DNA from: a virus
Direction: 5' to 3' (one strand)
Length of the DNA: 64,000 bases
IMG/VR virus record: IMGVR_UViG_3300042383_000523
Location: 41,757-105,756 of that record
The position numbers and the translations under genes were made by a program. Positions 3,742 through 51,394 of this stretch are shown here, piece by piece. Below the pieces are notes generated by a model. The model was not told the DNA's origin and did not search any database. It saw nothing but the letters and a program-made list of their open reading frames with translations. Each line of letters begins with the position of its first letter. Positions within the stretch are counted from its first letter, which is position 1.

Positions 3742-4635
3742 ATGCAAAAACAAAAAGACCACGTAGTAGTTTCATTAAGTGGGGGTTTAGATTCAAGCAC
3801 ATTACTATTACGTTGTTTATCAGAGTACAAAAGTGTTACGGCCATAAGCTTTGACTATGGTCAAAAGCACAGAGTAGAGCTAGAGAGAGCTCAATCATTA
3901 GTAGATTATATTAATTATTGGGAAAACAAAGGTGTAGAAGATGGACAAAAACCAAACTATCACCAAGTTAACTATCGTCAAATCCAATTAAACGGATTAG
4001 TTGATTTATTAGATTCAGCATTAGTAACAGGAGGTGAAGATGTACCAGAAGGCCACTATGCAGAAGATAATATGAAAGCAACAGTTGTTCCTAACAGAAA
4101 CAAAATATTTGCTTCTATTACTCAAGCAGTAGCTTTATCAGTTGCAAATCGTACAGGAGAGACTTGTGATATTGCAATGGGTATTCATGCTGGGGATTTT
4201 TCGATTTATCCGGATTGTAGAGCTGAATTTAGAGATGCTGATGATAATGCTTTCCGTTTAGGAAATTGGGGAGCTGAAAAAGTAGGATATTTTACTCCAT
4301 ATCTTGAAGGTAACAAATTTACAATCTTACAAGATGGAGAATTATTATGTGAAGAATTAGGTCTTGAATTTAATGAAGTTTATTCAAGAACTAACACCTC
4401 TTACAAACCAATCTGGATTCCGATACCTGAAGAAAACTACACAATTATGGGAACTACAACCTATGGAGGAAGATGGTACTCAGATTATAAATCAGCTTCA
4501 TCAGTTGAAAGAGTAGAAGCATTTATTAAATTAGGAAGACCTGATCCAGCTCCTTATGCAGACGAAACAGGACCAGTAACATGGGAACATGTAGTAACAG
4601 AAGTAACAAAAGTATTAGATAACCATAACAATTAA
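3742..4635 (+). CDS. queC: QueC-like 7-cyano-7-deazaguanine synthase (zinc-cysteine-less)
   Basis: A 297-residue ATP-dependent synthase of the PP-loop family. SGGLDSSTLL at 13-22 is the PP-loop, followed by AISFDYGQKH near 35-44 and the PNRNKIF and MGIHAGDFSIYPDCR motifs. QueC converts 7-carboxy-7-deazaguanine through an amide to preQ0. Normal QueC ends with four zinc-binding cysteines (SCY then CGxCxxC). Here the matching stretches are TSYKP at 219-223 and SDYKSASS at 247-254, with no cysteine. The protein is also about 70 residues longer than usual. It may stop at the amide, or fold without zinc. Confidence 0.88.
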   Translation: MQKQKDHVVVSLSGGLDSSTLLLRCLSEYKSVTAISFDYGQKHRVELERAQSLVDYINYWENKGVEDGQKPNYHQVNYRQIQLNGLVDLLDSALVTGGEDVPEGHYAEDNMKATVVPNRNKIFASITQAVALSVANRTGETCDIAMGIHAGDFSIYPDCRAEFRDADDNAFRLGNWGAEKVGYFTPYLEGNKFTILQDGELLCEELGLEFNEVYSRTNTSYKPIWIPIPEENYTIMGTTTYGGRWYSDYKSASSVERVEAFIKLGRPDPAPYADETGPVTWEHVVTEVTKVLDNHNN

Positions 4636-6131: not shown

Positions 6132-7220
6132 ATGAAACTTGGTCTGCAACATATCAGAAAATGGTTATACCCCCTTATTCTCACTATAGGGGGTATTTTT
6201 TTGTCCTATGGACAATCAACATTATGTCCATCAACTGCTACAAGTTTTGGATATGAATATGTAGCAGGAATCACTATAAACGGAAAGTACTACGCAGGTA
6301 ATACAGGATTCTCAGGACCAGGATATTATGATTACACAGGAAATCCTGTACCTAATATTAATGCTGGTGACGTAATAACAATATCATATACTGCTAGAAC
6401 TAATGGTGGATATTTGCAATATTTTAAATTTTGGTTTGATTTTAACGGTAATGGTGTATTAACCGATCCTGGAGAATTAGTATTAGATCAAAATGCTACT
6501 ATAAACAATACTACTCAAACATTTAATAGAACATTCACCGTACCTACAACAGTATTTAATGGTGTGGTATATATGAGGTTTATTATGGTATACTCATCAT
6601 CTCCTGTTATATGTGGTAATTATTCATATGGAAATACTTTTGATTTTAAAACAACAATTACAGGAGCTGTAGATCCTTTCAACTGCTCTGGGTATGTTTA
6701 CAACAGTGAGGAACAAGGAATTGCAAATATACCTATAAAATTACATTATAAGTTAACTAGTGCATCAACATATACTTTGCTTGGAACATACAATACAGAT
6801 GCTAATGGTAGGTACGTAATAATAACTAACCTAAACGCTAACTCATATAATTTTAGATTAGTATTAGACCCAATAACAGTAAATAATCCTACCTTTTCTA
6901 GTATAGTTTCATTTAACCAAAAAATACTAAATCAATCTTTTAACTCTAGAGATTTTTATAGATTAGATGTAAATGAAAATAATATGTTTACTGTAAGTGA
7001 TTTATATTTAATTAACAGAAAAATAATAGGATCATTATCAAATTGGAGTAACAGTCAACCTAACTACAGAATATTCCCAGCAACACAGTGGTCTGATATA
7101 AGAAATTCAACATTAAACCTAAAAATACAATATCCCGGAGCATTAAATGCAACCATTGATAATGTACAGAATGGACAACAAAATAATTTTTATATAATAA
7201 GAACTGGATATAGTAATTAA
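6132..7220 (+). CDS. Secreted GEVED/Ig-like/dockerin-like protein
   Basis: 362 residues. An N-terminal signal peptide (about 1-28, WLYPLILTIGGIFLSYGQ) is followed by a GEVED-type beta domain of Bacteroidota surface proteins (KFWFDFNGNGVLTDPGE near 97-113). Next comes a carboxypeptidase-regulatory/Ig-like domain (about 180-255). A dockerin-like segment near 275-300 (RLDVNENNMFTVSDLYLINRKI) has the Asp/Asn-rich calcium-loop look. The last two domains resemble those of the next gene. It is predicted to be exported across the host inner membrane and to join an envelope complex. An intrinsic-terminator sequence lies inside the signal-peptide codons. Confidence 0.8.
   Translation: MKLGLQHIRKWLYPLILTIGGIFLSYGQSTLCPSTATSFGYEYVAGITINGKYYAGNTGFSGPGYYDYTGNPVPNINAGDVITISYTARTNGGYLQYFKFWFDFNGNGVLTDPGELVLDQNATINNTTQTFNRTFTVPTTVFNGVVYMRFIMVYSSSPVICGNYSYGNTFDFKTTITGAVDPFNCSGYVYNSEEQGIANIPIKLHYKLTSASTYTLLGTYNTDANGRYVIITNLNANSYNFRLVLDPITVNNPTFSSIVSFNQKILNQSFNSRDFYRLDVNENNMFTVSDLYLINRKIIGSLSNWSNSQPNYRIFPATQWSDIRNSTLNLKIQYPGALNATIDNVQNGQQNNFYIIRTGYSN
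6167..6202 (+). terminator. Intrinsic terminator inside the 6132 reading frame
   Basis: ATACCCCCT (6167-6175) and AGGGGGTAT (6188-6196) form a 9-bp GC-rich stem with a 12-nt loop, followed by seven T. It lies in codons 12-24 of the exported protein, so ribosomes on the new mRNA could prevent its formation. Confidence 0.75.
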
Positions 7221-7297
7221 TTATTATATTTATCTATAGACATGAAAGTGTGAAAACACCTGGTTTTTGAATTAATAATTACTTAAACAAAAAAGAA

Positions 7298-8386
7298 ATG
7301 AAAAAATTACTTTTAGCTTTAAGTTTGGTTTTAGTATCATTAACAGGATTCGCACAAACAACAGCACCTGATGCTACTAAGCCTTACTTAATCTTTGACG
7401 CTAGTTACAATCTAGCACCTATAGGAGCAACACCTACAAACGTTGCAATTTATTATGATAATGCTGGTTCTACAGCTACCAAAGCAGTACAGTACAGATT
7501 TTGGTACGATAAAAACGTATTTGATGCACCTACAGTAACTTACACAGGAGCTGAAACAAACAACTATTTTCAGACATTAGTAAACGCTACTGAAGGAAAT
7601 GTAACAGTTACGTGGGTTTACACGGGAGCAGATGCATCTTTCAATATAGCTGACGGAGCAATGTTCAACGTAGCTTTACCATTTAAAGCCGGTTATACCA
7701 ATGGAGCTGTAACAGCAATGGCATTTACAGGAGCAACAGCTTATCCCGCTTATGGTACTTTAGCAGATGGAACTGATACAACATTAGGATTACAAAATTA
7801 TGGTGGAGTATTTACAGAACCAGTATTTGAATATGCTGCTACATTCTTAAATTCGCCCACTAACCCAGCTGAAAATGTCCCAGTAATATTACAAAAATCA
7901 CCAAATGGTACTACATGGACTGATATTACAACTGTAAATACAAATGCAAGTGGTGTTGCTTCATTTACAACTAACTTAGATCAAAACTACTGGCAAATTA
8001 GAGTAAAAGTAGCACCAGGTCTTACAGCACCAGATGCTTTATCTGCAGCAGATGCTGATATGATGGCTCAAATTGCTACAGGATTACAAACACCAACTGG
8101 AACTCAATTCTATACTGCTAACCCTAACCAAGCAAATGGAATAACAATTTCAGATTCATATACAGTATTCTCAAGATTAGCTCAAGGTTTATCAACTTAC
8201 CCAAATACACCTGATTTATTATTCTTTACAGAAGCTCAATACACAACAATTGCAGCAGCTACAACAGATCAATCAGCTACAATCCCAGGGGTATCAACAT
8301 TTACCTCAGCTAATATTAACAATACAACAGCTGCTAATTACTATTTATTAGTATTAGGAGACGCAAACGGAACAGGACGTAATTAA
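7298..8386 (+). CDS. Secreted cohesin-like/Ig-like/dockerin-like protein
   Basis: 362 residues. A clear signal peptide (MKKLLLALSLVLVSLTGFAQ) precedes a beta-rich region (about 25-170) with cohesin-like spacing (YRFWYDKNVFDAPTVTY ... VTWVYTGAD). Then come an Ig-like domain (about 185-245) and a segment ITISDSYTVFSRLAQG near 283 that aligns with the dockerin-like end of the 6132 protein. Ala/Thr-rich, almost no Lys. It likely pairs with a partner through a cohesin-dockerin type contact. The domain calls are motif-level; an alternative is a generic adhesin. Confidence 0.75.
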   Translation: MKKLLLALSLVLVSLTGFAQTTAPDATKPYLIFDASYNLAPIGATPTNVAIYYDNAGSTATKAVQYRFWYDKNVFDAPTVTYTGAETNNYFQTLVNATEGNVTVTWVYTGADASFNIADGAMFNVALPFKAGYTNGAVTAMAFTGATAYPAYGTLADGTDTTLGLQNYGGVFTEPVFEYAATFLNSPTNPAENVPVILQKSPNGTTWTDITTVNTNASGVASFTTNLDQNYWQIRVKVAPGLTAPDALSAADADMMAQIATGLQTPTGTQFYTANPNQANGITISDSYTVFSRLAQGLSTYPNTPDLLFFTEAQYTTIAAATTDQSATIPGVSTFTSANINNTTAANYYLLVLGDANGTGRN

Positions 8387-8387
8387 T

Positions 8388-9119
8388 ATGTTACGCTATA
8401 TAATCATAGTATTATTATCAATAAATTCACTATATTCTCAGGTACAGTTTCAAGTACCTGGGATTACAGTGTCTCCATCTAATACTATTGATTTACCTGT
8501 AACAATTCAAACAAATGGAAATGGAGTAGGAAGTTTAGAATTTGCTTTAAATTATGATCAAAGTATTCTACAATTCTCAGAAATAATATTATCTGAAAAA
8601 GCACAAACCTGGCTAACCTATACAATGGATACAGGAAGTGGTAAAGTAAGATGGGGAGGATATGATAGAACACATGGACAATATACTGTAACAGCCCCAA
8701 CAGAATTATTCATATTAAAATTTACAGTACTAAATCCTAACTGGACTCAAACTCCTATAACAATAGGAAGAAAAACAGCAGGAGATGTACAAGGATGGGA
8801 CATAGCTGTAACTAATACAGATGGATATGTTAATATGAATAGAAATGCTGCTCCTTTAGATGAAGACGGTATTAATGGTAGAGCATATCCTGTGCCTACA
8901 AATGATATTGTAACAGTAGATTTATCTCTCCCAGTAAGTGGAGATTACAATATAATAATATATGATCTAAATGGTAATGTTTTACAAAATAAAAAACAAC
9001 GTTTTGTAAAAGGAGATAACTCAATTCAAGAAAATTTACACCCTTATCCAAGTGGTGTCTATTTATTGCAAATAACAAATGTTAAATTTGTAAAAACATT
9101 TAAAATTATAAAAAATTAA
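8388..9119 (+). CDS. Secreted cohesin-domain protein with T9SS type A sorting domain
   Basis: 243 residues. A signal peptide (about 1-17) leads into a cohesin-like domain of about 130 residues (TIDLPVTIQTNG, GSLEFALNYDQSILQF, PTELFILKFTV). The C-terminus from about residue 163 matches the Bacteroidota type IX secretion sorting domain: RAYPVPTNDIVTVDL, NIIIYDLNGNVLQ, YPSGVYLLQI and a short basic end. Such domains send proteins through the host T9SS, after which the tail is normally cleaved and the protein attached to the surface. Its presence in a phage is unusual. It starts 2 nt after the previous gene. Confidence 0.85.
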   Translation: MLRYIIIVLLSINSLYSQVQFQVPGITVSPSNTIDLPVTIQTNGNGVGSLEFALNYDQSILQFSEIILSEKAQTWLTYTMDTGSGKVRWGGYDRTHGQYTVTAPTELFILKFTVLNPNWTQTPITIGRKTAGDVQGWDIAVTNTDGYVNMNRNAAPLDEDGINGRAYPVPTNDIVTVDLSLPVSGDYNIIIYDLNGNVLQNKKQRFVKGDNSIQENLHPYPSGVYLLQITNVKFVKTFKIIKN

Positions 9120-9123
9120 AATT

Positions 9124-9447
9124 ATGTCAGAAGAAACAAACAATGACGGTACTTGGTCAGGATTGAAAAAAACAATTATTGGGACATTAACTACAGTAAT
9201 TGGTGGAGGAGGTATTTGGTTATCAACAACTTTATTTGGAGGTCACTCTGAAGATAAAGAAGAACCAAAAACTGAAGTAGCAGCACCTGCTGCGGCGCCT
9301 GTTGTTATTAACTTACAAAACAATAACACCAACCAACAAAAACAACAATCAAACAATTCAAATTCTAACAACGTTAAGCAACAACCAGCACCTGCTCAAG
9401 CGACGCCTGCTCCAGCTAAACCAAAAACAGAAGAAGAACCTTGGTAA
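9124..9447 (+). CDS. Membrane-tethered protein with disordered Pro/Ala/Asn/Gln tail
   Basis: 107 residues. One glycine-rich membrane segment at about 17-40 (IIGTLTTVIGGGGIWLSTTLF) is followed by an acidic patch and a low-complexity tail of Asn/Gln then Pro/Ala/Lys. This resembles a periplasmic spacer such as those of TonB or spanin-like proteins. It is coupled by overlap to the CsgG-like gene, suggesting a shared envelope role. Confidence 0.65.
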   Translation: MSEETNNDGTWSGLKKTIIGTLTTVIGGGGIWLSTTLFGGHSEDKEEPKTEVAAPAAAPVVINLQNNNTNQQKQQSNNSNSNNVKQQPAPAQATPAPAKPKTEEEPW

Positions 9448-10151
9448 GATTATTCACAATATTATTTCTAGCTTTCAGTATAGTAGGTTTTTCCCAAAAG
9501 GTGGGATCTACTAAAACTGAAGAGTATAAGGCTGATTTTGAGAAGAAACAGTCTTTAGAAGTTGTATCTGATTACACTGATACTATTCAAATACCAATTC
9601 AAATATTAAAGATTGGTATTAATGAAGAGTTATATGAAATGTATCCTGAACTAAAAGACAAAAGAGTTGGTTTAGGGGTTTCAAATATTGTATTAGAGTA
9701 TTTAGAATCAACAAATAGATTTGTATTTACAGAAGAAAGAAATGAGATAAAACAAAACATGATTGCTCAAGATAAAGCATCAGCAAAAGGAATCTCATCA
9801 AATAAAATAGTTGTCAAAGGAAATGTTGTTTTAGCTAGATATTTTGTATACATTGAAGTATATGATTTCTCAGTTGGAGAAGATGAAGAAATTGCAACTA
9901 ACGGAATAGAAATAAAACAAAAAACAATAATAGGGTTACAGATAAGATTTGTGGATGCACAAAGCGGTGAAATAATTACTGGATCAGGTTCCGGTGAAGC
10001 GGTTACAGTGAAGAAAGCAAATCTACTAGACGGACTCGACGATACAAAATTCAATCAATCAACAATCGGAGTATCTACCAAAAAGTCATTAGAAACTGCT
10101 TCTTCAAGAGTAGTAAGTAAAATGATTAAAAAGGGGATATTTCGTAGTTAA
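9441..10151 (+). CDS. CsgG-like curli-type secretion pore protein
   Basis: 236 residues with an N-terminal signal sequence (VRLFTILFLAFSIVGFSQ). The body fits the CsgG family: GVSNIVLEYLESTNRFVFTEER near 75-96, a KIVVKGNV strand near 120, a QIRFVDAQSGEIITG strand near 170 and a terminal amphipathic helix. CsgG forms an outer-membrane export channel for curli subunits. Unlike E. coli CsgG it has no lipobox cysteine after the signal peptide. The 7-nt overlap with the 9124 gene and its stop touching the 10151 start indicate one operon. Confidence 0.75.
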   Translation: MVRLFTILFLAFSIVGFSQKVGSTKTEEYKADFEKKQSLEVVSDYTDTIQIPIQILKIGINEELYEMYPELKDKRVGLGVSNIVLEYLESTNRFVFTEERNEIKQNMIAQDKASAKGISSNKIVVKGNVVLARYFVYIEVYDFSVGEDEEIATNGIEIKQKTIIGLQIRFVDAQSGEIITGSGSGEAVTVKKANLLDGLDDTKFNQSTIGVSTKKSLETASSRVVSKMIKKGIFRS

Positions 10152-11566
10152 TGAAAAAATGGACATTATTATTTTTACTATTATCAACCCTGACTTCTTG
10201 GAGTCAGTACACCTATACTTACAAAGACCCTTGCACCCTAGTATCAAAAAGTATTTACGTACCAGTTGGTGGAGGAGTAATGGTAAGTTACTTCGACAAT
10301 CATAGCACTTTTACATCTAATGATTTTTCTTCGGGAGTATTTGACAACTGGTTAAATACAATATCTCAACAAAATACAAACTCACCTTGCGAATCTGTAA
10401 CTACCGCTATTGTAAATGGTATAAATAATATTACAGTAACTAATACTTTAACTATTGTTACAAATGTAATATCTGTTACAAATGTTGCACAATCAATAGC
10501 ATCTGTAGGTGGATCTATAGGTGATTCTATGACAGCAACAGCAGGAGGAGTAACAAACTCTTCACAAAATGAAGAAGGCAGTACTAACCAAAACTCAAAA
10601 GATGACAAAAAATCAAATAACAATACATCTACAGGAACGAATTCAGGATCTACTGGAACAGGCTCAACAGGTAACCAAAATCAAGGAGGCCAAACCACTT
10701 CTAACCCTTCTGGAGGAACACCTTCACAACCTTCATCAGGAACACCTCAACAAGGAGGAGAAACTACAAATCCAAATCAACCAACTTCAACAGGAGGTTC
10801 AACGTCTGAGTCATCTGTAGAAGGATCAAGTGGAGGTGGAAGCAACTTAGCTAATTCTTTATCAAACGCAGTAGATGGTGGGTCAGCTGATGGTGGAAGT
10901 ACATCAAGTGGAGGTAAAAAATCTAATGCTGCTACAAAAAATGCAGGAAGTTTAATAGCTTCTGGAGATATAGTAGCTATTGCCAATACTGATCAAACTC
11001 AAAACTTTAGATTTGTAGGAAGTATAACTCATGCTAACACAAAAGGAACTAGGATTAAAGGAGTATTGTTTAATTACACTTCAGGTGTTGATAATTTAAA
11101 TGTTACTTTTTATAAATCTTGGATTAACAAATCTAGAAAATTAAATACAGTAGGTGCTCAATCCTTCATGATGGATTTCGATAAAAACTTCTTTAGTACA
11201 ACCACAGTACTAGAATCATATAAAGTAAACAAAAAATTAACAGGTATGTTTGGTGTAAACTTTACAGCAGGTAAAATGGGAGAAAGATCTTTATTAAATA
11301 TGTCTGCCATAGGAGGTGCTCATACTACTTTTAAAGTAAATGATAGAATTAGTACTAGTCTACTTGTATTAGGAGTATATTCCCCATTTACTCAGTTCTA
11401 TGAAGGTAAATGGTGGGACGCAGGTATATTAGCTGTACCCTTCAATTCCTGGGATATAAAAATAACAAAAACATTTAAATTTAACGTAAGCTTCACTGGG
11501 GTGTACCAAGTTGGTGAATCATTCCTTAACTATCAAATACTCACAGGAGGTAAATTAAACTTTTAA
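10151..11566 (+). CDS. Exported protein with low-complexity middle and barrel-like C-terminus
   Basis: 471 residues. A signal peptide (about 1-19) is followed by a Val/Thr/Ile-rich N-domain (about 20-125). Residues about 135-250 are a Ser/Gly/Asn/Gln/Thr repeat-rich linker. The C-terminal 200 residues alternate polar and hydrophobic residues and end in phenylalanine (GGKLNF), as outer-membrane beta strands do. It is probably an outer-membrane barrel with a long surface or periplasmic linker. The partner is likely the CsgG-like protein encoded immediately upstream. Confidence 0.7.
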   Translation: MKKWTLLFLLLSTLTSWSQYTYTYKDPCTLVSKSIYVPVGGGVMVSYFDNHSTFTSNDFSSGVFDNWLNTISQQNTNSPCESVTTAIVNGINNITVTNTLTIVTNVISVTNVAQSIASVGGSIGDSMTATAGGVTNSSQNEEGSTNQNSKDDKKSNNNTSTGTNSGSTGTGSTGNQNQGGQTTSNPSGGTPSQPSSGTPQQGGETTNPNQPTSTGGSTSESSVEGSSGGGSNLANSLSNAVDGGSADGGSTSSGGKKSNAATKNAGSLIASGDIVAIANTDQTQNFRFVGSITHANTKGTRIKGVLFNYTSGVDNLNVTFYKSWINKSRKLNTVGAQSFMMDFDKNFFSTTTVLESYKVNKKLTGMFGVNFTAGKMGERSLLNMSAIGGAHTTFKVNDRISTSLLVLGVYSPFTQFYEGKWWDAGILAVPFNSWDIKITKTFKFNVSFTGVYQVGESFLNYQILTGGKLNF

Positions 11567-11568
11567 TT

Positions 11569-12006
11569 ATGAAAAAAATAATCTTTATTTTATTATTTCC
11601 ACTTTTCATGTTTTCACAAGAGTGTTACACTGTTAAAGAAATAACTTCAAGTGCTCAAATTGAAGAAATGAGCCAAAAAAGAATTACATTTGGTATTAAA
11701 CAAATGGCTGAAGAATTAATATCTGACAAATACCCTATATGCCAAGATGGTAATCCTGTCATTATTGATGTTTATTCTATAGAAGCGCCTTCTAAAGGAA
11801 TGTCATTAGGACCATTTGCCAGAAGTAAAAAACAAACTATAGTAAAAATAAAAGTATTGTTAGGTGATAAAGAATTATTAGGTGAAGGATTAGCCGAAAC
11901 ATCAACACAATCTATGTTTTTAGATTTAAATGATGAAAATTTACCTTTTAATAAAACATCGTTCGCATCAGCTGTTAAAAAAGCACTAGAATCAGCTTTA
12001 AATTAA
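11569..12006 (+). CDS. Exported CsgG-cluster protein
   Basis: 145 residues starting with a signal peptide (MKKIIFILLFPLFMFSQ). The mature part is a small alpha/beta domain with IIDVYSIEAPSKG and a KIKVLLGDKELLGEGLAET strand pair resembling part of the CsgG-type fold. It starts 2 nt after the 10151 gene and ends the cluster. No exact family named. Confidence 0.65.
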   Translation: MKKIIFILLFPLFMFSQECYTVKEITSSAQIEEMSQKRITFGIKQMAEELISDKYPICQDGNPVIIDVYSIEAPSKGMSLGPFARSKKQTIVKIKVLLGDKELLGEGLAETSTQSMFLDLNDENLPFNKTSFASAVKKALESALN

Positions 12007-12079: not shown

Positions 12080-12331
12080 ATGGGATTTTTCAGTATTTTT
12101 AAAAAATCAAATGATTATAACGAAAAAGTTATAATTGGGTTTTTATCATTCACAGTAATGGTAGGAGCTATTGTAGTAGACCTAGTAACAGGTTACATGG
12201 GTAAAGCATTAGAATTAAACGAGTACATTTTTGACGCATTTATGTACATCACATTAGGATCATTCCTTCCAGATGTGTTAGAAAAATTTGCAGCAATGAA
12301 AAATGGAAATAAATCAAACAACGACGAATAA
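12080..12331 (+). CDS. Small holin-like membrane protein
   Basis: 83 residues with two hydrophobic segments (about 17-36 and 45-63) and a charged C-terminus, a class II holin-like layout. It lies 8 nt before the endolysin. It may act in lysis or as an antiholin. Confidence 0.6.
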   Translation: MGFFSIFKKSNDYNEKVIIGFLSFTVMVGAIVVDLVTGYMGKALELNEYIFDAFMYITLGSFLPDVLEKFAAMKNGNKSNNDE

Positions 12332-12338: not shown

Positions 12339-12950
12339 ATGAGTTTACAAAGTTTACAAAAGAAAATAGGAGTAGCAGCAGACGGAGCATTCGGTCCTGG
12401 TACTATGAAAAAAGCAATGGAGTTTTATAAATTAACTCCTGTAAGAGCAGCACATTTCTTTGCTCAAACAGCTCATGAAACAGGAGGTTATAAATTGTTC
12501 TCTGAAAACCTAAACTATTCAGCACAAGGGCTTCAAGGTATCTTCGGAAAATATTTTCCAGGTAACTTAGAAGAGTCTTATGCTAGAAACCCTGAAAAAA
12601 TCGCTAACAGAGTTTACGCATCTAGAATGGGTAACGGAGACGAAAAATCAGGAGATGGTTGGAAATATAGAGGTAGAGGAGCTCTACAATTAACTGGAAA
12701 AGATAATTATGCAGCATTTGCTAAATATCTACAAAAACCAGAAATCATGACTAATCCTGACTTAGTAGCTACAGAATATTCATTTGAATCAGCAATGTTC
12801 TTCTTTGATAAAAATAAATTATGGGAGATATGCGACAAAGGAATCAACGATGCAGCTATTTTAGCTCTTACGAAAAGAATTAACGGTGGTACTCACGGAT
12901 TAGAGGATAGAAACCAAAAAACTAAAAAGTACTACGAATACGTTAAATAA
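12339..12950 (+). CDS. GH19-type endolysin
   Basis: 203 residues. The N-terminal 30 or so residues form a short peptidoglycan-binding-like repeat (QKKIGVAADGAFGPGTMKKA). The rest matches glycoside hydrolase family 19/lysozyme-like endolysins: AHFFAQTAHETGGYKLFSENLNY with the catalytic Glu in HETGG, then WKYRGRGALQLTGKDNY and the TKRINGG segment. It cuts the glycan strands of peptidoglycan at lysis. No signal peptide is seen, so release through a holin is expected. Confidence 0.92.
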   Translation: MSLQSLQKKIGVAADGAFGPGTMKKAMEFYKLTPVRAAHFFAQTAHETGGYKLFSENLNYSAQGLQGIFGKYFPGNLEESYARNPEKIANRVYASRMGNGDEKSGDGWKYRGRGALQLTGKDNYAAFAKYLQKPEIMTNPDLVATEYSFESAMFFFDKNKLWEICDKGINDAAILALTKRINGGTHGLEDRNQKTKKYYEYVK

Positions 12951-12961: not shown

Positions 12962-13378
12962 ATGAAAACTTCACTTTTAATTACATTATCATTGACAACA
13001 GCATGCGCATTTATAGGTTCATACTTTATGAATCTAACAGCAGATAACATCGAACAATACCTTTCAGTAGCATTTGTAATATTTGCTGACGGGTTCTTTG
13101 GGGTGTGGGCTGGAGTTAAAAGAGAAGGATTCAGAACATATAAAGCATTAAGTGTACTAAAAACATTTATATTTTGGACAGTAATGCTTTCAGCTATATT
13201 AACAATAGAAAAAGGATTCACTGGAACATCATGGTTAAGTGAAACGATTATGGCTCCATTTTTAGTATTCCAGTTAATCTCTATTCTAAAAAATGCATCA
13301 ATGGTAGGAGTAGTAAAAAACGAACTACTAACACAAATCCTAGATAAGTTAGATAAACATAAAGGAGAAAGAGAATAA
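12962..13378 (+). CDS. Phage holin (holin family 4-like)
   Basis: 138 residues with three or four membrane segments (about 4-22, 34-50, 66-83 and 92-110) and a charged tail. The FVIFADGFFGVWAGVKREGF segment, with ALSVLKTF after it, is typical of the toxin-secretion/phage-lysis holin family. Downstream of the endolysin it completes the lysis cassette. Confidence 0.8.
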   Translation: MKTSLLITLSLTTACAFIGSYFMNLTADNIEQYLSVAFVIFADGFFGVWAGVKREGFRTYKALSVLKTFIFWTVMLSAILTIEKGFTGTSWLSETIMAPFLVFQLISILKNASMVGVVKNELLTQILDKLDKHKGERE

Positions 13379-13458: not shown

Positions 13459-13698
13459 ATGAAACCAATCTTTGTAATCCAAATGCCATTAGGCACTCCT
13501 GCTGAGATTTTAGAAAAAGCATACGATCAAGTACATAGTAATGGTATAAGTGAAGATTATCACGTACTTCTTACTATAGGTAATGATTCAACAGCAACTT
13601 TTAAATGCTTTAATTCTTCATATACTAAAGAAGAGTATGCTAAATTAGAACAATTAATAAACGAAATAAATAAAGATTATGTCTCTAAAGAGAATTGA
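13459..13698 (+). CDS. Hypothetical protein (79 aa)
   Basis: 79 residues, first gene after the promoter at 13405. Mixed alpha/beta, no clear motif. It overlaps the queE start by 20 nt. Confidence 0.6.
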   Translation: MKPIFVIQMPLGTPAEILEKAYDQVHSNGISEDYHVLLTIGNDSTATFKCFNSSYTKEEYAKLEQLINEINKDYVSKEN

Positions 13699-14458
13699 AG
13701 ATTATAACAAAACACTTCCAATTGTAGAGCTTTATACAGCAGTACAGTCAGAAGGAAGTAGAGCAGGTTATCCAACAGTAGTAATCAGAACAACAGGTTG
13801 TACTCACAGATGTTGGTTCGGAGATGGTGGATGGTGCGATTCTTGGTATACAAGTATTCATCCTGAAAAAGGACATATTAGTTTCCAAGACATTATTAAC
13901 ATGTACGATAAAAATCCTCACATCACAGAGATGATGCTTACAGGAGGATCACCCACAATGCACCCTGCATTAGTAAATGAATTAACACATTTTGCACATG
14001 AAAGAAATATTTTCATTACAATTGAGACCGAAGGAAGTCATTTTCTTGAAACAGATTACCCGATTAATCTACTATCAATCTCCCCTAAGTTCAGCAATTC
14101 TGTCCCTAAAGTTGGCATTGCAACACCTCAAGGAGACATTACAGATGAAAGAATGATTAAACAACATAATAAGTTAAGACTTAATTATGATGCAATTTCT
14201 AAATCAATTGCTTACCATTCTGATTATCACTTAAAACCAGTATGGGATGGTGAAGATCAAGACGCATTAGAAGAAATAATGGGTTGCATTAAAATATTAG
14301 ATATACCGCAAGACAAAGTATGGTTCATGCCAGCTGGTGATTCAAGAGAGGCTTTATTTAAATCATACCCTAAAATGTTTGATTGGGTGAGAGATAACGG
14401 TTATAGATTGACCTGGAGACCCCATATTATTGCATTTGAAGATCAAAGAGAAGTATAA
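13679..14458 (+). CDS. queE: QueE 7-carboxy-7-deazaguanine synthase (radical SAM)
   Basis: 259 residues. A radical-SAM core with cysteines C41, C45 and C53 (GCTHRCWFGDGGWC) spaced CX3CX7C, longer than the usual CX3CX2C, as QueE variants allow. VELYTAVQSEGSRAGYPTV is the typical QueE N-terminus, with EMMLTGGSPT as the SAM-binding GGE-like motif and SISPKFSNS after it. It converts 6-carboxytetrahydropterin to 7-carboxy-7-deazaguanine. It is co-transcribed with folE and completes the pathway with queD and queC. Confidence 0.92.
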   Translation: MSLKRIEDYNKTLPIVELYTAVQSEGSRAGYPTVVIRTTGCTHRCWFGDGGWCDSWYTSIHPEKGHISFQDIINMYDKNPHITEMMLTGGSPTMHPALVNELTHFAHERNIFITIETEGSHFLETDYPINLLSISPKFSNSVPKVGIATPQGDITDERMIKQHNKLRLNYDAISKSIAYHSDYHLKPVWDGEDQDALEEIMGCIKILDIPQDKVWFMPAGDSREALFKSYPKMFDWVRDNGYRLTWRPHIIAFEDQREV

Positions 14459-14661
14459 TGACATTAAGAGAAGCCCATTTAAACGAAATAGATGTACTAA
14501 ACACCCTATGGTGGATGTTGAGTAATCAAAAAATTAATCTAGGTGATGTAAAATTTCATGCCCAAAGTTTGGATCTTGAAATAGAATTTATTACATTTGA
14601 AGGATATAGATTTACAAATAAAGATAAAACAATTATTTATTCTTATGGCAGACAACAATAG
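14458..14661 (+). CDS. Hypothetical protein (67 aa)
   Basis: 67 residues coupled to queE (TAATG) and overlapping folE by 17 nt. No motif recognised. Confidence 0.6.
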   Translation: MTLREAHLNEIDVLNTLWWMLSNQKINLGDVKFHAQSLDLEIEFITFEGYRFTNKDKTIIYSYGRQQ

Positions 14662-15343
14662 AAAGAAAATCCACAACGATTTAGAAGTGGTACAAGTAGG
14701 TTTTGCAAATGGTGTTGCACCTGGTTTTCCTTTAACTGATCTTCAAAAACAGCATATGATTGAAGAGGCAACTGAAGCATACGGCCAGTTTTTAACAGCA
14801 TTAGGTTGTGATTGGAAAAATGATCCAAACAGTTCTGATACACCAAGACGTGTAGCTAAAGCATACGTTAATGATTTATGGAAAGGTAGATACACAGAAA
14901 TGTCTGAAATTACTTCATTCCCATCAGACGGTTATGATGGTATTATAATTGAAAGAAACATTCCATTAACTTCAATGTGTTCACATCACCATCAAACAAT
15001 TGGAGGAGTAGTTCATATTGGTTATATAGCTGGAGAACATGGTCAAGTAATTGGTTTATCTAAACTAAACAGAATTGTTGAATTATTTGGTCGTAGAGGA
15101 GCTATTCAAGAACAATTAACATCAGCTATTCATAACGCTGTAAATAAGATTACTGAAGGTAATTTAGGTGTTATTGTTACTATAGTTGGAACTCATAACT
15201 GTGTATCTTGTAGAGGTGTTAAACACCAAGGGGCAGCAATGGTTACTACTAAAGCATCAGGTGCTTTTAGAGATGATACTAATAATGCTCGTAAAGAGTT
15301 CTTTGATTCATTAAAGATTAATAACGGTGGACATAATATCTAA
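14645..15343 (+). CDS. folE: GTP cyclohydrolase I (FolE)
   Basis: 232 residues from the internal ATG at 14645. A longer in-frame start at 14597 would lie deep in the previous gene, so I prefer 14645. The GTP cyclohydrolase I signature is present: TSMCSHHHQTIGG with C112 and H114/H115 for zinc, then GLSKLNRIVELFGRRGAIQEQLT and the late CVSCRGVKHQGA. It makes dihydroneopterin triphosphate from GTP, feeding QueD. Confidence 0.93.
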   Translation: MADNNRKKIHNDLEVVQVGFANGVAPGFPLTDLQKQHMIEEATEAYGQFLTALGCDWKNDPNSSDTPRRVAKAYVNDLWKGRYTEMSEITSFPSDGYDGIIIERNIPLTSMCSHHHQTIGGVVHIGYIAGEHGQVIGLSKLNRIVELFGRRGAIQEQLTSAIHNAVNKITEGNLGVIVTIVGTHNCVSCRGVKHQGAAMVTTKASGAFRDDTNNARKEFFDSLKINNGGHNI

Positions 15344-16621: not shown

Positions 16622-17899
16622 ATGTCTAAAAAAAAGGTTTCCGACGAAACTATATTCGTACAAATTGCTTCTTATAGAGATCCGGAATTGCTTCCTACTT
16701 TAGAAAGTTGTATATCTAATGCAAAATACCCAGAAAATTTACATTTCTGTATTGCTTGGCAACATTCTGAAGAAGATGAATGGGATACTTTAGACCAATA
16801 TAAAAATGATCCTCGTTTTAATATATTGGATATAAACTACAAAGATGCAAAAGGCGTATGTTGGGCTAGAAATAAACTTCAACGACAGTATAACGGAGAA
16901 AAATACACATTACAATTGGATTCTCATCACCGATTCGATAAGAATTGGGATGAGACTCTGATTAATATGTTAAAAGGTCTTCAAGTTAAAGGTCATAAAA
17001 AACCCTTATTAACTGCATATTTACCTGGATATTTCCCTAAAAATGATCCTGAAGGTAGAAATGTAGAAGTATGGCACACAAATTATGACAGATTTATGCC
17101 TGAAGGTCCTATATTTATTACTCCTGACTATGTACCAGATTGGAGAGAAATTAAAGAACCAATTCCTGCTAGGTTATACTCCGGACATTTTGCATTTACT
17201 TTAGGTAGCTTTGTACATGATGTACCACATGATCCTGATTTATATTTTCATGGAGAAGAAACATCAATAGCTGCTCGTGCTTATACTCATGGCTACGATT
17301 TGTTCCATCCTCATATTCCTGTTATATGGCATGAATACACTAGAGAAGGAAAACAACGCCATTGGGATGATCATCAATTTTCACCATTAGATAAACGTTC
17401 ATTTAAAAAATACCGAGCATTATTTGGTATAGATGGTGAAAGTAGAGAAGACTTTGATTTTGTAGGTTACGATTTAGGTACTGAACGTACTTTAGCTGAA
17501 TTTGAACGCTATATAGGTGTTGATTTTAAAGGTAAACGAGTTCACATTCATACATCTCAACATAAATTACTACCAGTACCTTATACAACTGAAGAAGATT
17601 GGGAAGCTAATATGACTCGACGTTTTAAATATTGTATTGATGTTTATAAAGGTTCACTTCTTGACGAAGACTATGACTGTTGGGTAATAGCATTTAAAGA
17701 TAAAGATGGAGTAGAAATTTATAGACAAGATGCAGACGCCGAAGAAATAAACCAAATTAAACTTGGAAACTCAGGACAATTTTACAATATTTGGAGAGAA
17801 TTTGACTGTATTGAATATCCAAAAACATGGTTACTGTGGCCTCACAGTCCATCTAAAGAGTGGAATCACGAAGTTATACAAAACGAAATACCTTATTAA
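16622..17899 (+). CDS. GT60-like (GlcNAc-type) glycosyltransferase
   Basis: 425 residues. It begins with IFVQIASYRDPELLPTLESC, the signature of the GlcNAc glycosyltransferase family (GT60-like). QLDSHHRFD near 98-106 supplies the DxH metal/nucleotide-sugar motif, and a second acidic site, HGEETSIAARAYTHGYDLFHP, lies near 214-234. It probably transfers a sugar from UDP-GlcNAc or a similar donor. The next gene is a diverged copy, so the pair arose by tandem duplication. Confidence 0.85.
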   Translation: MSKKKVSDETIFVQIASYRDPELLPTLESCISNAKYPENLHFCIAWQHSEEDEWDTLDQYKNDPRFNILDINYKDAKGVCWARNKLQRQYNGEKYTLQLDSHHRFDKNWDETLINMLKGLQVKGHKKPLLTAYLPGYFPKNDPEGRNVEVWHTNYDRFMPEGPIFITPDYVPDWREIKEPIPARLYSGHFAFTLGSFVHDVPHDPDLYFHGEETSIAARAYTHGYDLFHPHIPVIWHEYTREGKQRHWDDHQFSPLDKRSFKKYRALFGIDGESREDFDFVGYDLGTERTLAEFERYIGVDFKGKRVHIHTSQHKLLPVPYTTEEDWEANMTRRFKYCIDVYKGSLLDEDYDCWVIAFKDKDGVEIYRQDADAEEINQIKLGNSGQFYNIWREFDCIEYPKTWLLWPHSPSKEWNHEVIQNEIPY

Positions 17900-19185
17900 T
17901 GAAAAAAGCAGAAAAAAGAAAAATATTTCTCCACTTACCAGCGTATAGAGAACCAGAACTTATTCCAACAATACAATCTGCATTAAATAATGCAAAACAT
18001 CCTGAAAGATTAGTATTTGGTATATGTCGTCAATTTAATCCTGAAGATGGGTTTGATAATATTGATGAATATAGAAAAGATAAGCGTTTTAAAATTATTG
18101 ATATACCATACGAAGAAGCTAAAGGATTACCATATGCTCGTTATCAAATTAACACCTTGTTAACTAATGAAGAATACATATGTCAATTAGATTCTCACCA
18201 TAGGTTTGCACATCATTGGGATGTAACTTTAATTGAGATGCATGATCAATTAAAAGCTAAAGGACATAAAAAACCTATACTAGCTGCTTATTTACCCTAT
18301 TATAATCCGTTTAATGACCCTGCTGAGCGTACTATGGAACCATGGCAACAAACGTTTGCCTCGTTCTACCCACACGGAACAATATTCATTAGACCAGGAT
18401 TATTACACGGGTGGCAAGACATGGAAGAACCAGCACCCTCAAGATTCTTATCAGGACATTTTTGCTTTGCTGATAGTCATTGGGCTAAAACTGTTCTCCA
18501 TGATGCTGATATATATTTTAGTGGTGAAGAATTAAATTTAACTGTACGTTCATATACTCACGGTTATGATATGTTTCATCCACATAAATTAGTTGTATGG
18601 CATGCTACTATGAGAGAAGAACGTAGTGGTAAATTAGTGTGGGATGATCAGTCTAAACGTGGAGAAGATTGGTGGACTCAACAAAATGTAGCAAGAGCTA
18701 AAATTAGACAATTACTTCAAACAGAAGATAACGGATTTGATTTAACTGGTTATGATCTAGGTACTGAACGTACATTAAGAGAATATGAAAAATACGCTGG
18801 TATTCATTTTAAAAAACGTGCAGTACAAAAATATACATTAGAAAATCACTATCCTCCGAACCCGGTTATTGAAGATGACCAAGAATGGGAAAATTCATTT
18901 ATGTTTTCATTCTATCATCTATTACAATTTAATAAATCTACTTTCAAACATAATGATTATGACTTTTGGGTTGTAGCCTTTGATGATGAAAATGGAAACC
19001 AAATTTGGAGAGAAGATTATAATGAATATCAAATAAAACAAATCATAGAAACTCAAGGTGATTGGTATAATGAAGAAAAATTCTTCTTAACAGATAAAGT
19101 ACCATCAAAATGGGTTATATGGGCTCATAGTAAATCTCAAGAATGGGCAGAACGAATAGAAGGACCAATTAATTACGGAAATTAA
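17899..19185 (+). CDS. GT60-like glycosyltransferase, tandem paralogue
   Basis: 428 residues from the ATG at 17899, which overlaps the preceding TAA. It has the same family marks as its neighbour: FLHLPAYREPELIPTIQSAL, QLDSHHRFAHHWD, SGEELNLTVRSYTHGYDMFHPH. The C-terminal 90 residues also align with the 16622 protein (DYDFWVVAFDDENG). The two may add consecutive sugars. Confidence 0.85.
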   Translation: MKKAEKRKIFLHLPAYREPELIPTIQSALNNAKHPERLVFGICRQFNPEDGFDNIDEYRKDKRFKIIDIPYEEAKGLPYARYQINTLLTNEEYICQLDSHHRFAHHWDVTLIEMHDQLKAKGHKKPILAAYLPYYNPFNDPAERTMEPWQQTFASFYPHGTIFIRPGLLHGWQDMEEPAPSRFLSGHFCFADSHWAKTVLHDADIYFSGEELNLTVRSYTHGYDMFHPHKLVVWHATMREERSGKLVWDDQSKRGEDWWTQQNVARAKIRQLLQTEDNGFDLTGYDLGTERTLREYEKYAGIHFKKRAVQKYTLENHYPPNPVIEDDQEWENSFMFSFYHLLQFNKSTFKHNDYDFWVVAFDDENGNQIWREDYNEYQIKQIIETQGDWYNEEKFFLTDKVPSKWVIWAHSKSQEWAERIEGPINYGN

Positions 19186-48793: not shown

Positions 48794-48877
48794 GGAAGAC
48801 ATCCGGCTGGATCAGGAGCGACTCTTGAAAAGTCGTAGCAGGTAACACTGTTGTGGGTTCGAGTCCCACGTCTTCCT
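48794..48877 (+). tRNA. tRNA-Ser(UGA)
   Basis: Acceptor GGAAGAC/GTCTTCC, anticodon loop CTTGAAA, long variable arm, T loop TTCGAGT. No encoded CCA. Confidence 0.92.
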
Positions 48878-48883
48878 CAATAT

Positions 48884-48955
48884 TGGCTTATAGTGTAACG
48901 GTTAGCACAAAACACTTTGACTGTTTTAGTCTAGGTTCGAATCCTAGTAAGCCAA
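48884..48955 (+). tRNA. tRNA-Gln(UUG)
   Basis: Acceptor TGGCTTA/TAAGCCA, anticodon loop CTTTGAC, T arm CTAGG-TTCGAAT-CCTAG. Confidence 0.93.
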
Positions 48956-48964
48956 CAATAATTT

Positions 48965-49040
48965 CTGGTAGTAGAGGAGTCCGGTCTATCTCGCTCGCCT
49001 TGGACGCGAGAGCACGCAAGTTCGAATCTTGCCTACCAGA
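48965..49040 (+). tRNA. tRNA-Pro(UGG)
   Basis: Acceptor CTGGTAG/CTACCAG, anticodon stem-loop CTCGC-CTTGGAC-GCGAG, T arm GCAAG/CTTGC. Confidence 0.93.
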
Positions 49041-49046
49041 CAAATT

Positions 49047-49119
49047 GCCTTCGAAGCTCATGTGGACGGGCACCGGGCTTTTAACTCGGGGGTAGTTGGT
49101 TCGAGGCCAACCGGGGGTA
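49047..49119 (+). tRNA. tRNA-Lys(UUU)
   Basis: Anticodon loop CTTTTAA, T arm GTTGG-TTCGAGG-CCAAC. The acceptor GCCTTCG/CGGGGGT relies on three G-U type pairs. Confidence 0.85.
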
Positions 49120-49167
49120 CAATCAAGTGGTTAATACTAAACAATGGATTACAAAGGAAGTATATTT

Positions 49168-49238
49168 GCCTCGTTGGCGTAATGGGAGCGTATTTCTTTT
49201 ACATGGAAATGGCAGTAGTTCGATTCTACTACGAGGTA
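49168..49238 (+). tRNA. tRNA-Val(UAC)
   Basis: Acceptor GCCTCGT/ACGAGGT, anticodon stem-loop TTTCT-TTTACAT-GGAAA, T arm AGTAG/CTACT. Confidence 0.9.
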
Positions 49239-49246
49239 CAAAAATT

Positions 49247-49327
49247 GGGGACTAAAAGTCGTTCGGATACGACAGCGGGACTGTAAATCTCGTCCAATTG
49301 GGAGTGGTTCGAGTCCACTAGGCCCCA
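49247..49327 (+). tRNA. tRNA-Tyr(GUA)
   Basis: Anticodon stem-loop CGGGA-CTGTAAA-TCTCG, extended variable arm, T arm AGTGG/CCACT. One A-G mismatch in the acceptor. Confidence 0.9.
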
Positions 49328-49332
49328 CAATT

Positions 49333-49405
49333 GGACCTTTGGTATAGCTGGTGCGTACGCTAGTCTGAAGAACTAGAGGAGTAGGTTCGATTCCTACAGG
49401 GTCCA
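49333..49405 (+). tRNA. tRNA-Phe(GAA)
   Basis: Acceptor GGACCTT/AGGGTCC, anticodon stem-loop CTAGT-CTGAAGA-ACTAG. Confidence 0.93.
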
Positions 49406-49410
49406 CAACC

Positions 49411-49482
49411 GGGTTTGTCGTATAAAGGTTATTACGGATGACTGTTAATCATCTTATGGAGGTTCGATTCCTCCCAGGCCCG
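49411..49482 (+). tRNA. tRNA-Asn(GUU)
   Basis: Acceptor GGGTTTG/CAGGCCC with G-U pairs, anticodon stem-loop GATGA-CTGTTAA-TCATC, discriminator G. Confidence 0.92.
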
Positions 49483-49490
49483 CAAAAATT

Positions 49491-49562
49491 GCTCCTATAG
49501 TAGAATGGTTAGCACACATCTCTGATAAGGATGAAATGGAAGTTCAATTCTTCCTAGGAGTA
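49491..49562 (+). tRNA. tRNA-Ile(GAU)
   Basis: Acceptor GCTCCTA/TAGGAGT, anticodon stem-loop CATCT-CTGATAA-GGATG, T arm GGAAG-TTCAATT-CTTCC. Confidence 0.92.
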
Positions 49563-49570
49563 CAAAAAAT

Positions 49571-49690
49571 GGTTCCTAAGATGAGGGTTTGTATTAGCGC
49601 TAAATGATACAACTCTGAACTTTAGCATAATGGTTTGCGATTCTGTTTAGCGATGGAATGGAAGAGTGGGTTCGACTCCTACAGGAATTA
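49571..49690 (+). tRNA. Oversized tRNA-like element (120 nt)
   Basis: GGTTCCT (49571-49577) pairs with AGGAATT (49683-49689), and a T arm GTGGG-TTCGACT-CCTAC sits in the right place. The body is about 45 nt too long and contains GCTAAA/TTTAGC self-pairing. A D-arm-like TAGCATAATGG lies near 49623-49633. Possibly a tRNA with an insertion between acceptor and D arm. No anticodon can be assigned. Confidence 0.45.
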
Positions 49691-49696
49691 CAAAAT

Positions 49697-49781
49697 GGAA
49701 AGTAAACTAACGAGGTGTTAGGATGCCCTGCTAAGGCAATCGCTCGATAAAACGGGTTCGTTTCGAATACGATGCTTTCCT
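49697..49781 (+). tRNA. tRNA-Ser(GCU)
   Basis: Acceptor GGAAAGT/GCTTTCC, anticodon loop CTGCTAA, long variable arm, T loop TTCGAAT. Confidence 0.88.
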
Positions 49782-49786
49782 CAAAC

Positions 49787-49856
49787 GCCGACTTGATCAG
49801 GTGATCGAAAATATCTCATAAGTATTTTCAGAGTGGATCGTTACCACTAGTCGGTA
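49787..49856 (+). tRNA. tRNA-Met(CAU), unusual T loop
   Basis: Acceptor GCCGACT/AGTCGGT, anticodon stem-loop AATAT-CTCATAA-GTATT. The T loop reads ATCGTTA instead of TTCRANN. First of three CAU tRNAs; one could be an isoleucine tRNA after modification, or the initiator. Confidence 0.78.
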
Positions 49857-49860
49857 CAAA

Positions 49861-49937
49861 GCTAAAGTGGTGAAATTGGTAAACACTCCCATCGAGAGAT
49901 GGTGCGGATTTTGTAGGTTCGAGTCCTACCTTTAGTG
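49861..49937 (+). tRNA. tRNA-Leu-like, anticodon uncertain (possible GAG)
   Basis: Acceptor GCTAAAG/CTTTAGT, Leu-style D arm GTGGTGAAATTGGTAAACAC, T arm GTAGG/CCTAC. The anticodon hairpin is CCAT-CGAGAG-ATGG, a 6-nt loop, or CCATC-GAGA-GATGG. Confidence 0.6.
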
Positions 49938-49942
49938 TATAT

Positions 49943-50014
49943 GGTGTTTCTAGCTTATTGGTAAAGCGCTTGACTGTGAATCAGGAGAACAGGGTTCGAT
50001 ACCCGGTAACACCC
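49943..50014 (+). tRNA. tRNA-His(GUG)
   Basis: Anticodon stem-loop CTTGA-CTGTGAA-TCAGG, 5' GG and a discriminator C that allow the G-1:C73 pair of tRNA-His, T loop TTCGATA. Confidence 0.88.
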
Positions 50015-50019
50015 AACAC

Positions 50020-50092
50020 ATCCCTGTGGTGAAATGGTAAACACAACGGGCTTAAACCTCGTAAGCTGCTGGTTCGACTCCAGTCAGGGGTA
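50020..50092 (+). tRNA. tRNA-Leu(UAA) with short variable loop
   Basis: Acceptor ATCCCTG/CAGGGGT, Leu-style D arm, anticodon stem-loop ACGGG-CTTAAAC-CTCGT. The variable region is only five bases (AAGCT), although bacterial tRNA-Leu is class II. Confidence 0.82.
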
Positions 50093-50096
50093 CAAA

Positions 50097-50189
50097 ATTA
50101 AAGTGGCGGAATTGGTAGACGCAAGTGATAAGCGGTAACTCGGATGAAGTCAACTCAGTTACGTACAGGTTCGAGTCCTGTCTTTAATT
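50097..50189 (+). tRNA. Leu-like tRNA element, anticodon unresolved
   Basis: Acceptor ATTAAAG/CTTTAAT and T arm ACAGG-TTCGAGT-CCTGT are good, with a Leu-style D arm GTGGCGGAATTGGTAGACGC. The 42 nt between D and T arms hold GTAACT/AGTTAC pairing but no clean 7-nt anticodon loop. Confidence 0.5.
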
Positions 50190-50195
50190 TTAATT

Positions 50196-50267
50196 GGTCT
50201 TATAGTTTAATTGGAAAAACTTATCGCTACGAACGATAGAACGTAGGTTCGACTCCTACTAAGACCT
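50196..50267 (+). tRNA. tRNA-Arg(ACG)
   Basis: Acceptor GGTCTTA/TAAGACC, anticodon stem-loop TATCG-CTACGAA-CGATA. Confidence 0.93.
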
Positions 50268-50272
50268 CAACT

Positions 50273-50344
50273 GCCCGTATAGTTTAATCGGAAGAACTAA
50301 ACGCTTCTAACGTTTCAGTCCTGGTTCGAGTCCAGGTATGGGTT
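50273..50344 (+). tRNA. tRNA-Arg(UCU)
   Basis: Acceptor GCCCGTA/TATGGGT, anticodon stem-loop AAACG-CTTCTAA-CGTTT, T arm CCTGG/CCAGG. Confidence 0.93.
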
Positions 50345-50350
50345 CAAAAT

Positions 50351-50419
50351 GCGTCACAGGCTAAGGTAGCCAAATGGATTCCAACCCCATAGGACAGAGT
50401 TCGATTCTTTGGTGGCGCG
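50351..50419 (+). tRNA. tRNA-Trp(CCA)
   Basis: Acceptor GCGTCAC/GTGGCGC, anticodon loop TTCCAAC, discriminator G. Confidence 0.88.
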
Positions 50420-50512
50420 CAGAAGACGGAGAACAGAGTAAGGATTAAATTCCGTTAGGCTATCCCTTACCAGTTTCTCCTGAAGAAATTATTAATTTAA
50501 AAGCAAGTTATC
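50420..50512 (+). other. Structured spacer before HNH gene
   Basis: GTAAGGAT and ATCCCTTAC arms (about 50439-50482), inside GGAGAAC ... GTTTCTCC, suggest a further hairpin-rich RNA between tRNA-Trp and the HNH gene. No tRNA fold and no reading frame. Confidence 0.4.
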
Positions 50513-51019: not shown

Positions 51020-51029
51020 TAAAGTAAGT

Positions 51030-51061
51030 TTGGAAAACTAAAAATAAGTTCATATATTTAG
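51030..51061 (+). promoter_or_regulatory. Promoter of the second half of the tRNA array
   Basis: TTG 51030-51032, 20-nt spacer, TATATTTAG 51053-51061. The first tRNA downstream is at 51154. The 132-nt stretch from 51022 holds nothing else that I recognise. Confidence 0.72.
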
Positions 51062-51153
51062 GTATAAGAAAGAAATATCACCTACTACAAAACGGCGCGC
51101 GAAACAATAGAATCCCGACTTGTACTATCTGGCAGGTCAGATTAGGTGAATAG

Positions 51154-51225
51154 GGGCAATTGGTCGATTGGTTTAGGCACAGGATTGCAAACTCTGTTAG
51201 GTTGGTTCGATTCCAACATTGCCCT
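51154..51225 (+). tRNA. tRNA-Cys(GCA)
   Basis: Acceptor GGGCAAT/ATTGCCC, anticodon loop TTGCAAA, T arm GTTGG/CCAAC. Confidence 0.9.
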
Positions 51226-51320: not shown

Positions 51321-51394
51321 GCCCGAGTGGTGGAATTGGCAGACACGCTAGACTTAGGATCTAGATATTGAGAGTTCGAGTCTCTCCTTGGGTA
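51321..51394 (+). tRNA. tRNA-Leu(UAG) with short variable loop
   Basis: Acceptor GCCCGAG/CTTGGGT, Leu-style D arm, anticodon stem-loop CTAGA-CTTAGGA-TCTAG, T arm GAGAG/CTCTC. The variable region is only ATATT. Confidence 0.88.

Follow-up and report, generated by a model that had tools for sequence, protein, structure and literature searches.

A cluster of seven genes carried by a widespread family of large Bacteroidota viruses is, judging from its distribution, a phage-borne and co-inherited module, and we consider the chances about even that its products build an envelope display complex on the infected cell, which presents a swappable lectin. The window that was analyzed is a stretch of 64,000 nucleotides (bases 41757-105756 of a viral contig of 105,756 bp), in which the cluster occupies 6132-12006 on the + strand. 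The seven consecutive ORFs, p1-p7, are all present at the place that the first-pass annotation of this DNA had given:

6132..7220, + strand: p1, adhesin-like exported protein with a signal peptide, a GEVED domain and a dockerin-like tail
6867..7217, + strand: the dockerin-like tail of p1 (residues 246-362), based on hhalign to the p2 tail, a tail HMM and a calcium-loop pattern in relatives
7298..8386, + strand: p2, exported scaffold half with a beta-rich N-terminal domain, a TTR/CNA-B-like domain and a dockerin-like tail
8388..9119, + strand: p3, exported protein with a cohesin domain (residues 19-129) and a T9SS type A sorting domain (residues 167-243)
9124..9447, + strand: p4, short protein with a single N-in membrane helix, an N/Q/P-rich stretch and an acidic C-terminus
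9441..10151, + strand: p5, exported protein with a predicted CsgG-like fold
10151..11566, + strand: p6, N-terminal domain, low-complexity linker and a predicted 12-stranded outer-membrane barrel
11569..12006, + strand: p7, small exported protein related to p5, with an invariant Cys19

The intergenic gaps from p1 to p7 are 77, 1, 4, -7, -1 and 2 nt, and signal-peptide-like N-termini are seen in p1, p2, p3, p5, p6 and p7, with p4 possessing an N-in membrane helix instead; both the gaps of mostly less than 10 nt and the six signal peptides among seven proteins had been noted before and are recovered here. The Flavobacterium phages vB_FspM_immuto from the Baltic Sea (160 kb; immuto below) are the nearest cultured relatives of this virus, and in immuto 18 of the 206 ORFs look exported by a crude rule for signal peptides; eight of these 18 are consecutive, and comprise the cluster and an exported nuclease. 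The start codon of p5 at 9441 is a TTG within the stop-codon region of p4, and the equivalent overlap in immuto yields an ATG. A PADLOC search of the cluster returned nothing credible, and the signal for a Bacteroidota promoter pattern was not above chance.

Viral contigs with a relative of p5 number at least 557, and contigs bearing the module reach up to 308 kb. Across 84,980 bacterial and archaeal species, represented by one genome each, p5 gave just two matches in cellular genomes, both on MAG contigs, and none of the 149 other Flavobacteriaceae genomes contained it, which speaks against a bacterial origin of this gene. Among 50,697 phage records, those of immuto were the sole ones to match p5, p6, p3 or the relatives of p1, p2 and p5. 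In a set of 38 loci picked for their divergence, p5 and p7 are present in all 38, genes of the p1/p2 type and p6 in 37 each and p4 in 34; the cluster genes are always adjacent or nearly so, and the genes flanking them differ. The core p2(-p3)-p4-p5-p6-p7, along with p1, is thus kept in 34-38 of the 38 divergent phage loci, and the search for the same gene order in other phages, which had been proposed as a check, has a positive outcome. A wider set of loci yielded p6 in 82/82 and p4 in 81/82, and the best-conserved member of the cluster is p5, with 65-98% identity. This recurrence of the gene set across divergent loci is far beyond chance, and together with the abundance of p5 in viral contigs and its two cellular matches it points to a phage-borne module whose genes are inherited together. 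Occurrence in hundreds of phage contigs, near-absence from bacterial genomes and preservation of the intact set in very divergent large phages imply that the module must matter to infection; its annotated members are mostly labeled 'hypothetical protein'.

Some additional genes recur beside the cluster. An exported DNA/RNA non-specific endonuclease (PF01223, 1e-24 to 1e-25; e.g. L030:5191-5769 and L001:9935-10513) adjoins it in 8 of the 38 lineages, including immuto (gp012), and is possibly a periplasmic or released nuclease. A small exported protein with a HExxH motif (L012:10163-10606), which has no Pfam match, neighbors p1/p7 or p2 in 22 of the 38 lineages. Beside p5, 18 of the 38 lineages encode a conserved two-TM protein with the motif GAFVGNLNKVVDYWFNSEDRDK (L012:6849-7199), which is holin-like by eye, with library matches that are unconvincing.

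The p3 protein recovered a match to the Cohesin family (1.8e-9; 38.4 bits against a cut-off of 24.1) and, at its C-terminus, matches to the Por_Secre_tail (4.7e-11; PF18962, 43.2 bits against a cut-off of 27) and to TIGR04183, the model for type A sorting domains of the T9SS, with 42.9 bits for a cut-off of 23. Hence, it combines a signal peptide with a C-terminal sorting domain scoring above curated cut-offs, as is typical of type A T9SS cargo, and the cohesin and T9SS tail that had been assigned to it are both secure by these thresholds. In most relatives outside the clade of the window, p2 and p3 are one protein of ~640 aa ending in the cohesin domain and the T9SS tail. By this gene-fusion evidence the two are normally a single protein, which had been overlooked; in the window's clade they are split, with p3 having a signal peptide of its own and retaining both the cohesin and the sorting domain. 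In the p2 family (n=37), Por_Secre_tail is detected in 28 members (the fused ones), Cohesin in 25 and Dockerin_1 in 12, and the cohesin and dockerin families are both recognized within a single relative protein. The best Dockerin_1 E-value among p2 relatives is 7.8e-5, one of 34 p1 relatives also has a match to it, and the matches displayed individually fall below Pfam's cut-off. The window's own p1 and p2 give no Dockerin match, and their tails are termed dockerin-like via their relatives. Thus, of the previous description of p2 as cohesin-like and dockerin-like, the dockerin-like tail is backed by the 12 Dockerin_1-bearing relatives, and the cohesin-like look of the N-terminus by eye finds no support in the profile comparison (hhalign probability 3%). 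Where p2 and p3 are split, as in the clade of the window, p2 may be held to the cohesin of p3 by its dockerin-like end, in place of the lost covalent link.

The earlier description of p1 as an exported GEVED/dockerin-like protein is corroborated by a Pfam GEVED match (1.8e-11) and by the homology of its tail with that of p2 (hhalign 2.5e-28, probability 99.8). An HMM built from the p1 tails picks up p2 and retrieves 149 different ORFs, of which a locus mostly has two, and the tails of p1 relatives display a DxNxDxxxTxSD calcium-loop pattern. N-terminal to this conserved tail are variable modules, which among 34 p1 relatives were Lectin_C (C-type lectin; 25), Laminin_G_3 (LamG; 9), Ig_7 (3), GEVED (2) and PA14 (2). 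Comparison of the window with a closely related locus (L013) showed p1 to be 36.5% identical overall, with 90% identity in the signal peptide and 28% in the middle; identity is 83-95% for the six remaining cluster genes and 95-98.5% for the endolysin, holin and queE genes close by. Likewise, between L013 and another locus (L008) p1 is 37% identical and the remaining cluster genes are 94-100% identical. By these comparisons p1 is a lectin cassette that is replaced wholesale between near-identical clusters, which had gone unnoticed in the first-pass annotation, and its swapping follows the pattern expected of a binding module selected to change its target. A motif search close to p1 found no diversity-generating retroelement.

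Cassette swapping and lectin modules are also typical of phage receptor-binding proteins, and p1 could conceivably be such a protein, with the products of the cluster decorating the virus particle or its tail. We regard this as very improbable: signal peptides for Sec and a tail for the T9SS are ill-suited to assembly in the cytoplasm, none of the seven proteins has a PHROG tail or head match, and in immuto the cluster (10.5-16.4 kb) follows replication and nucleotide-metabolism genes and is well separated from the genes for head and tail (~82-160 kb), which argues against a role in the virion.

In the second half of the cluster, p5 likely adopts a CsgG-like fold. Its AlphaFold2 model, of low confidence (pLDDT 61.5), has the CsgG topology, and in Foldseek searches CsgG accounted for each of the 24 best PDB matches (best E 4.3e-8), with PelC, LptE and others of the same fold type ranking next; among viral proteins, a phage CsgG matched best. 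However, by sequence p5 belongs outside the CsgG family, with no match to the family model PF03783 at E<=1, none in NCBIfam, and no relatives among PDB sequences in single-sequence and profile searches. An hhalign probability of 81% between p5 and CsgG was inflated by the signal peptide, and comparison of the mature p5 with E. coli and Flavobacteriaceae CsgG lowers it to a weak 13%, leaving the predicted structure as the ground for the CsgG assignment. The hairpin segments of p5 measure 33 residues against 28 in CsgG for the first and 25 against 36 for the second, and in the model (pLDDT 61.5) the strand at 178-193 passes into a helix at 206-230. Hence, the former label of a CsgG-like pore retains its first part, the fold, and the pore is not supported, given the missing family match and the short second hairpin segment. 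Profile-profile comparison further indicates that p7, in which Cys19 is invariant, shares a domain with p5 (hhalign E 4.2e-8; 8.5e-6 without signal peptides), a relationship that had been missed; the other profile pairs within the cluster were negative, apart from the p1 and p2 tails. A profile match of p7 to ribosomal protein S1 (2e-4) was judged spurious, as it involves 48 residues of an unrelated repeat and p7 is tied to p5 by hhalign. Neither p5 nor p7 has a consistent lipobox: a lipobox-like motif occurs in 22 of 57 p5 relatives and is absent from the p5 of the window.

In the p6 protein, an N-terminal domain that contains two conserved cysteines is followed by a long, disordered low-complexity linker (~120-260) and a barrel (267-469), which AlphaFold2 predicts, with low confidence (pLDDT 58.5), to be a 12-stranded outer-membrane barrel. 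Foldseek matched this model to NanC (2.1e-5) and FapF (3.1e-4), and also to autotransporters, so that the matches are, for a predicted model, generic for outer-membrane barrels; its profile matches in the PDB are low-complexity artefacts. The two methods are nevertheless in agreement with the barrel-like protein with a long low-complexity linker that had been proposed. In an alignment of 55 sequences, p4 has an N/Q/P-rich stretch and a conserved acidic C-terminus with a terminal W, and its 'Zot-like' and 'hol-like' PHROG matches are low-complexity artefacts.

These folds raise the alternative that p5 and p6 are the outer-membrane pore through which a fibre or adhesin encoded by the cluster is exported, i.e. 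a curli- or Fap-like secretion system of the functional-amyloid type. The CsgG matches at the top of the p5 Foldseek results, the appearance of FapF alongside other 12-stranded barrels for p6, and the complete curli modules of pelagiphages (PMC9599517) would fit such a system. Indeed FapF, the exporter of the Pseudomonas functional amyloid, which has an N-terminal trimeric coiled coil and is encoded in a fap operon, is like the predicted p6 composed of an N-terminal periplasmic part, a linker and a 12-stranded barrel, but its match is generic, NanC scores better and the other fap genes are absent from the cluster. Moreover, the seven proteins yielded no match to CsgG, CsgF, CsgE or curlin in Pfam, PHROG and NCBIfam, the 13% profile link and the second hairpin segment of 25 instead of 36 residues speak against an authentic CsgG, and the T9SS tail of the cargo already supplies an exit. 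We accordingly hold this alternative to be rather doubtful.

The envelope display complex draws on the signal peptides of six of the seven proteins, the T9SS domain in p3 and in 28 of the 37 p2-family members, the homologous p1 and p2 tails, the sugar-binding modules of p1 and their swapping, and the location of the cluster outside the structural module of immuto. The docking, surface location, glycan target and benefit of display that we infer would be as follows. All the proteins except p4 would leave the cytoplasm via the host Sec system; p3, fused to p2 in most relatives, would then cross the outer membrane via the host T9SS and remain on the surface, and p1 would dock on this cohesin scaffold through its dockerin-like tail. 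Because p1 itself lacks a T9SS tail, it would have to be carried along or else stay in the periplasm. With p4 as a putative inner-membrane tether, p5 and p7 as probable periplasmic CsgG-type proteins and p6 as the predicted outer-membrane barrel, p4-p7 together might constitute an accompanying envelope anchor or exporter, which conserved gene order ties to p1-p3; the p6 barrel and the CsgG-type p5 point to the outer membrane as the site. The displayed lectin might bind surface glycans of the infected cell itself and so hide its receptors from superinfecting phages or progeny, or alternatively glycans of neighboring cells or particles; receptor masking with superinfection exclusion, capture of neighbors and help in release may all be reconciled with the evidence for display. 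The previous proposal of an envelope complex using host Sec and T9SS is in this respect sustained by genes that are co-inherited, exported and away from the head and tail genes, and by their cohesin, dockerin-like, T9SS, CsgG-type and barrel parts, with the p5 pore as the element that is not supported.

A function in lysis or release needs to be weighed in light of the genes into which the cluster of the window directly runs:

12080-12331, + strand: two-TM holin-like ORF adjoining the cluster
12339-12950, + strand: GH19-type endolysin (PHROG endolysin, 9.9e-63)
12962-13378, + strand: holin (PHROG holin, 1.1e-4; Phage_holin_4_1, 3.8e-6)

An endolysin is encoded within 10 kb of the cluster in 24 of 38 lineages, a count not corrected for shared descent, at several relative positions and on either side. 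Such frequent lysis-gene neighbors suggest late expression or joint regulation with lysis, and they are equally compatible with a role in lysis itself. It is also conceivable that p4-p7 disrupt or bridge the outer membrane instead of spanins, and that the exported lectin, in relatives together with the nuclease or the HExxH protein, frees the progeny from envelope and debris. The single-TM topology of p4 resembles that of an i-spanin (a TM segment and a periplasmic tail), its gene has a 7-nt overlap with p5, and a pinholin-like role has been proposed for the CsgG of the methylophage Melnitz (PMC9004378). Nevertheless, we judge this alternative unlikely: in immuto the endolysin and holin genes (22.1 and 43.7-44.8 kb) are apart from the cluster, no o-spanin lipoprotein is evident, with the lipobox-like motif of p5 being sporadic, and a cohesin, a T9SS tail and swapped lectins would be superfluous for lysis.

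The display complex can be compared with several known systems. Pelagiphages possess modules for curli secretion, whose proposed functions are aggregation, 'sibling capture' or defence against superinfection (PMC7029224, PMC9599517), and Melnitz encodes a CsgG with a proposed role in lysis (PMC9004378). Like the cluster, the genes of the pelagiphages (HTVC008M, HTVC023P-type) and Melnitz are phage-borne and co-inherited, combine an outer-membrane CsgG-type protein with exported surface proteins, and are missing from the host (PMC7029224, PMC9599517, PMC9004378). However, in contrast to p5, the CsgG of pelagiphages genuinely belongs to the family, possesses both of the hairpins and is accompanied by curlin, and the cluster has no CsgF or curlin, its surface part being formed by cohesin, dockerin and lectin elements with a T9SS tail. 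The Bacteroidota phage Cryophage (76 kb) encodes variable T9SS type A cargo, including a PA14 protein, for which superinfection exclusion was suggested (PMC7468147). Compared by description, its cargo consists of single enzymes or PA14 proteins, whereas a cohesin/dockerin scaffold or a CsgG/barrel complex is not reported for it (PMC7468147). In view of these phage curli modules and T9SS cargo, the assertion that no phage system of this make-up had been described is too strong for the kind, and the exact make-up of the cluster was not found in the open-licence full-text papers that were searched. The cellulosome is reminiscent of the cluster in placing cohesins on an exported scaffold and dockerin tails on interchangeable partners, but its partners are glycoside hydrolases rather than lectin, LamG, GEVED and PA14 modules, and the cluster is viral and outer-membrane based.

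In its most specific form, which we put forward tentatively and with less than even confidence, large Bacteroidota phages would make a cohesin-dockerin surface scaffold on the infected cell, exported by the host T9SS and anchored by a complex of phage-specific CsgG-type and barrel proteins, whose lectin tip is exchanged in the manner of a tail-fibre cassette to match the local glycan and masks receptors or captures neighbors. If true, this would represent a virus-made, non-cellulosomal cohesin-dockerin machine. After pelagiphage curli, the display of swappable lectins would offer a second explanation, of independent construction, for the remodeling of host surfaces by aquatic phages, and would imply that phages use the host type IX system within a multi-protein machine. 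The proposal is readily testable, as cultured immuto phages and a host strain exist.

Elsewhere in the window, QueC-, QueE- and FolE-like genes (3742-4635, 13679-14458 and 14597-15343) probably constitute a 7-deazaguanine DNA-modification pathway, and immuto encodes a DpdA-like transglycosylase as well. Two tandem glycosyltransferase-like ORFs, similar to each other, are located at 16622-19185, and an array of 24 tRNA genes at 48794-53075 is accompanied by a change in G+C from ~0.30 to ~0.39.
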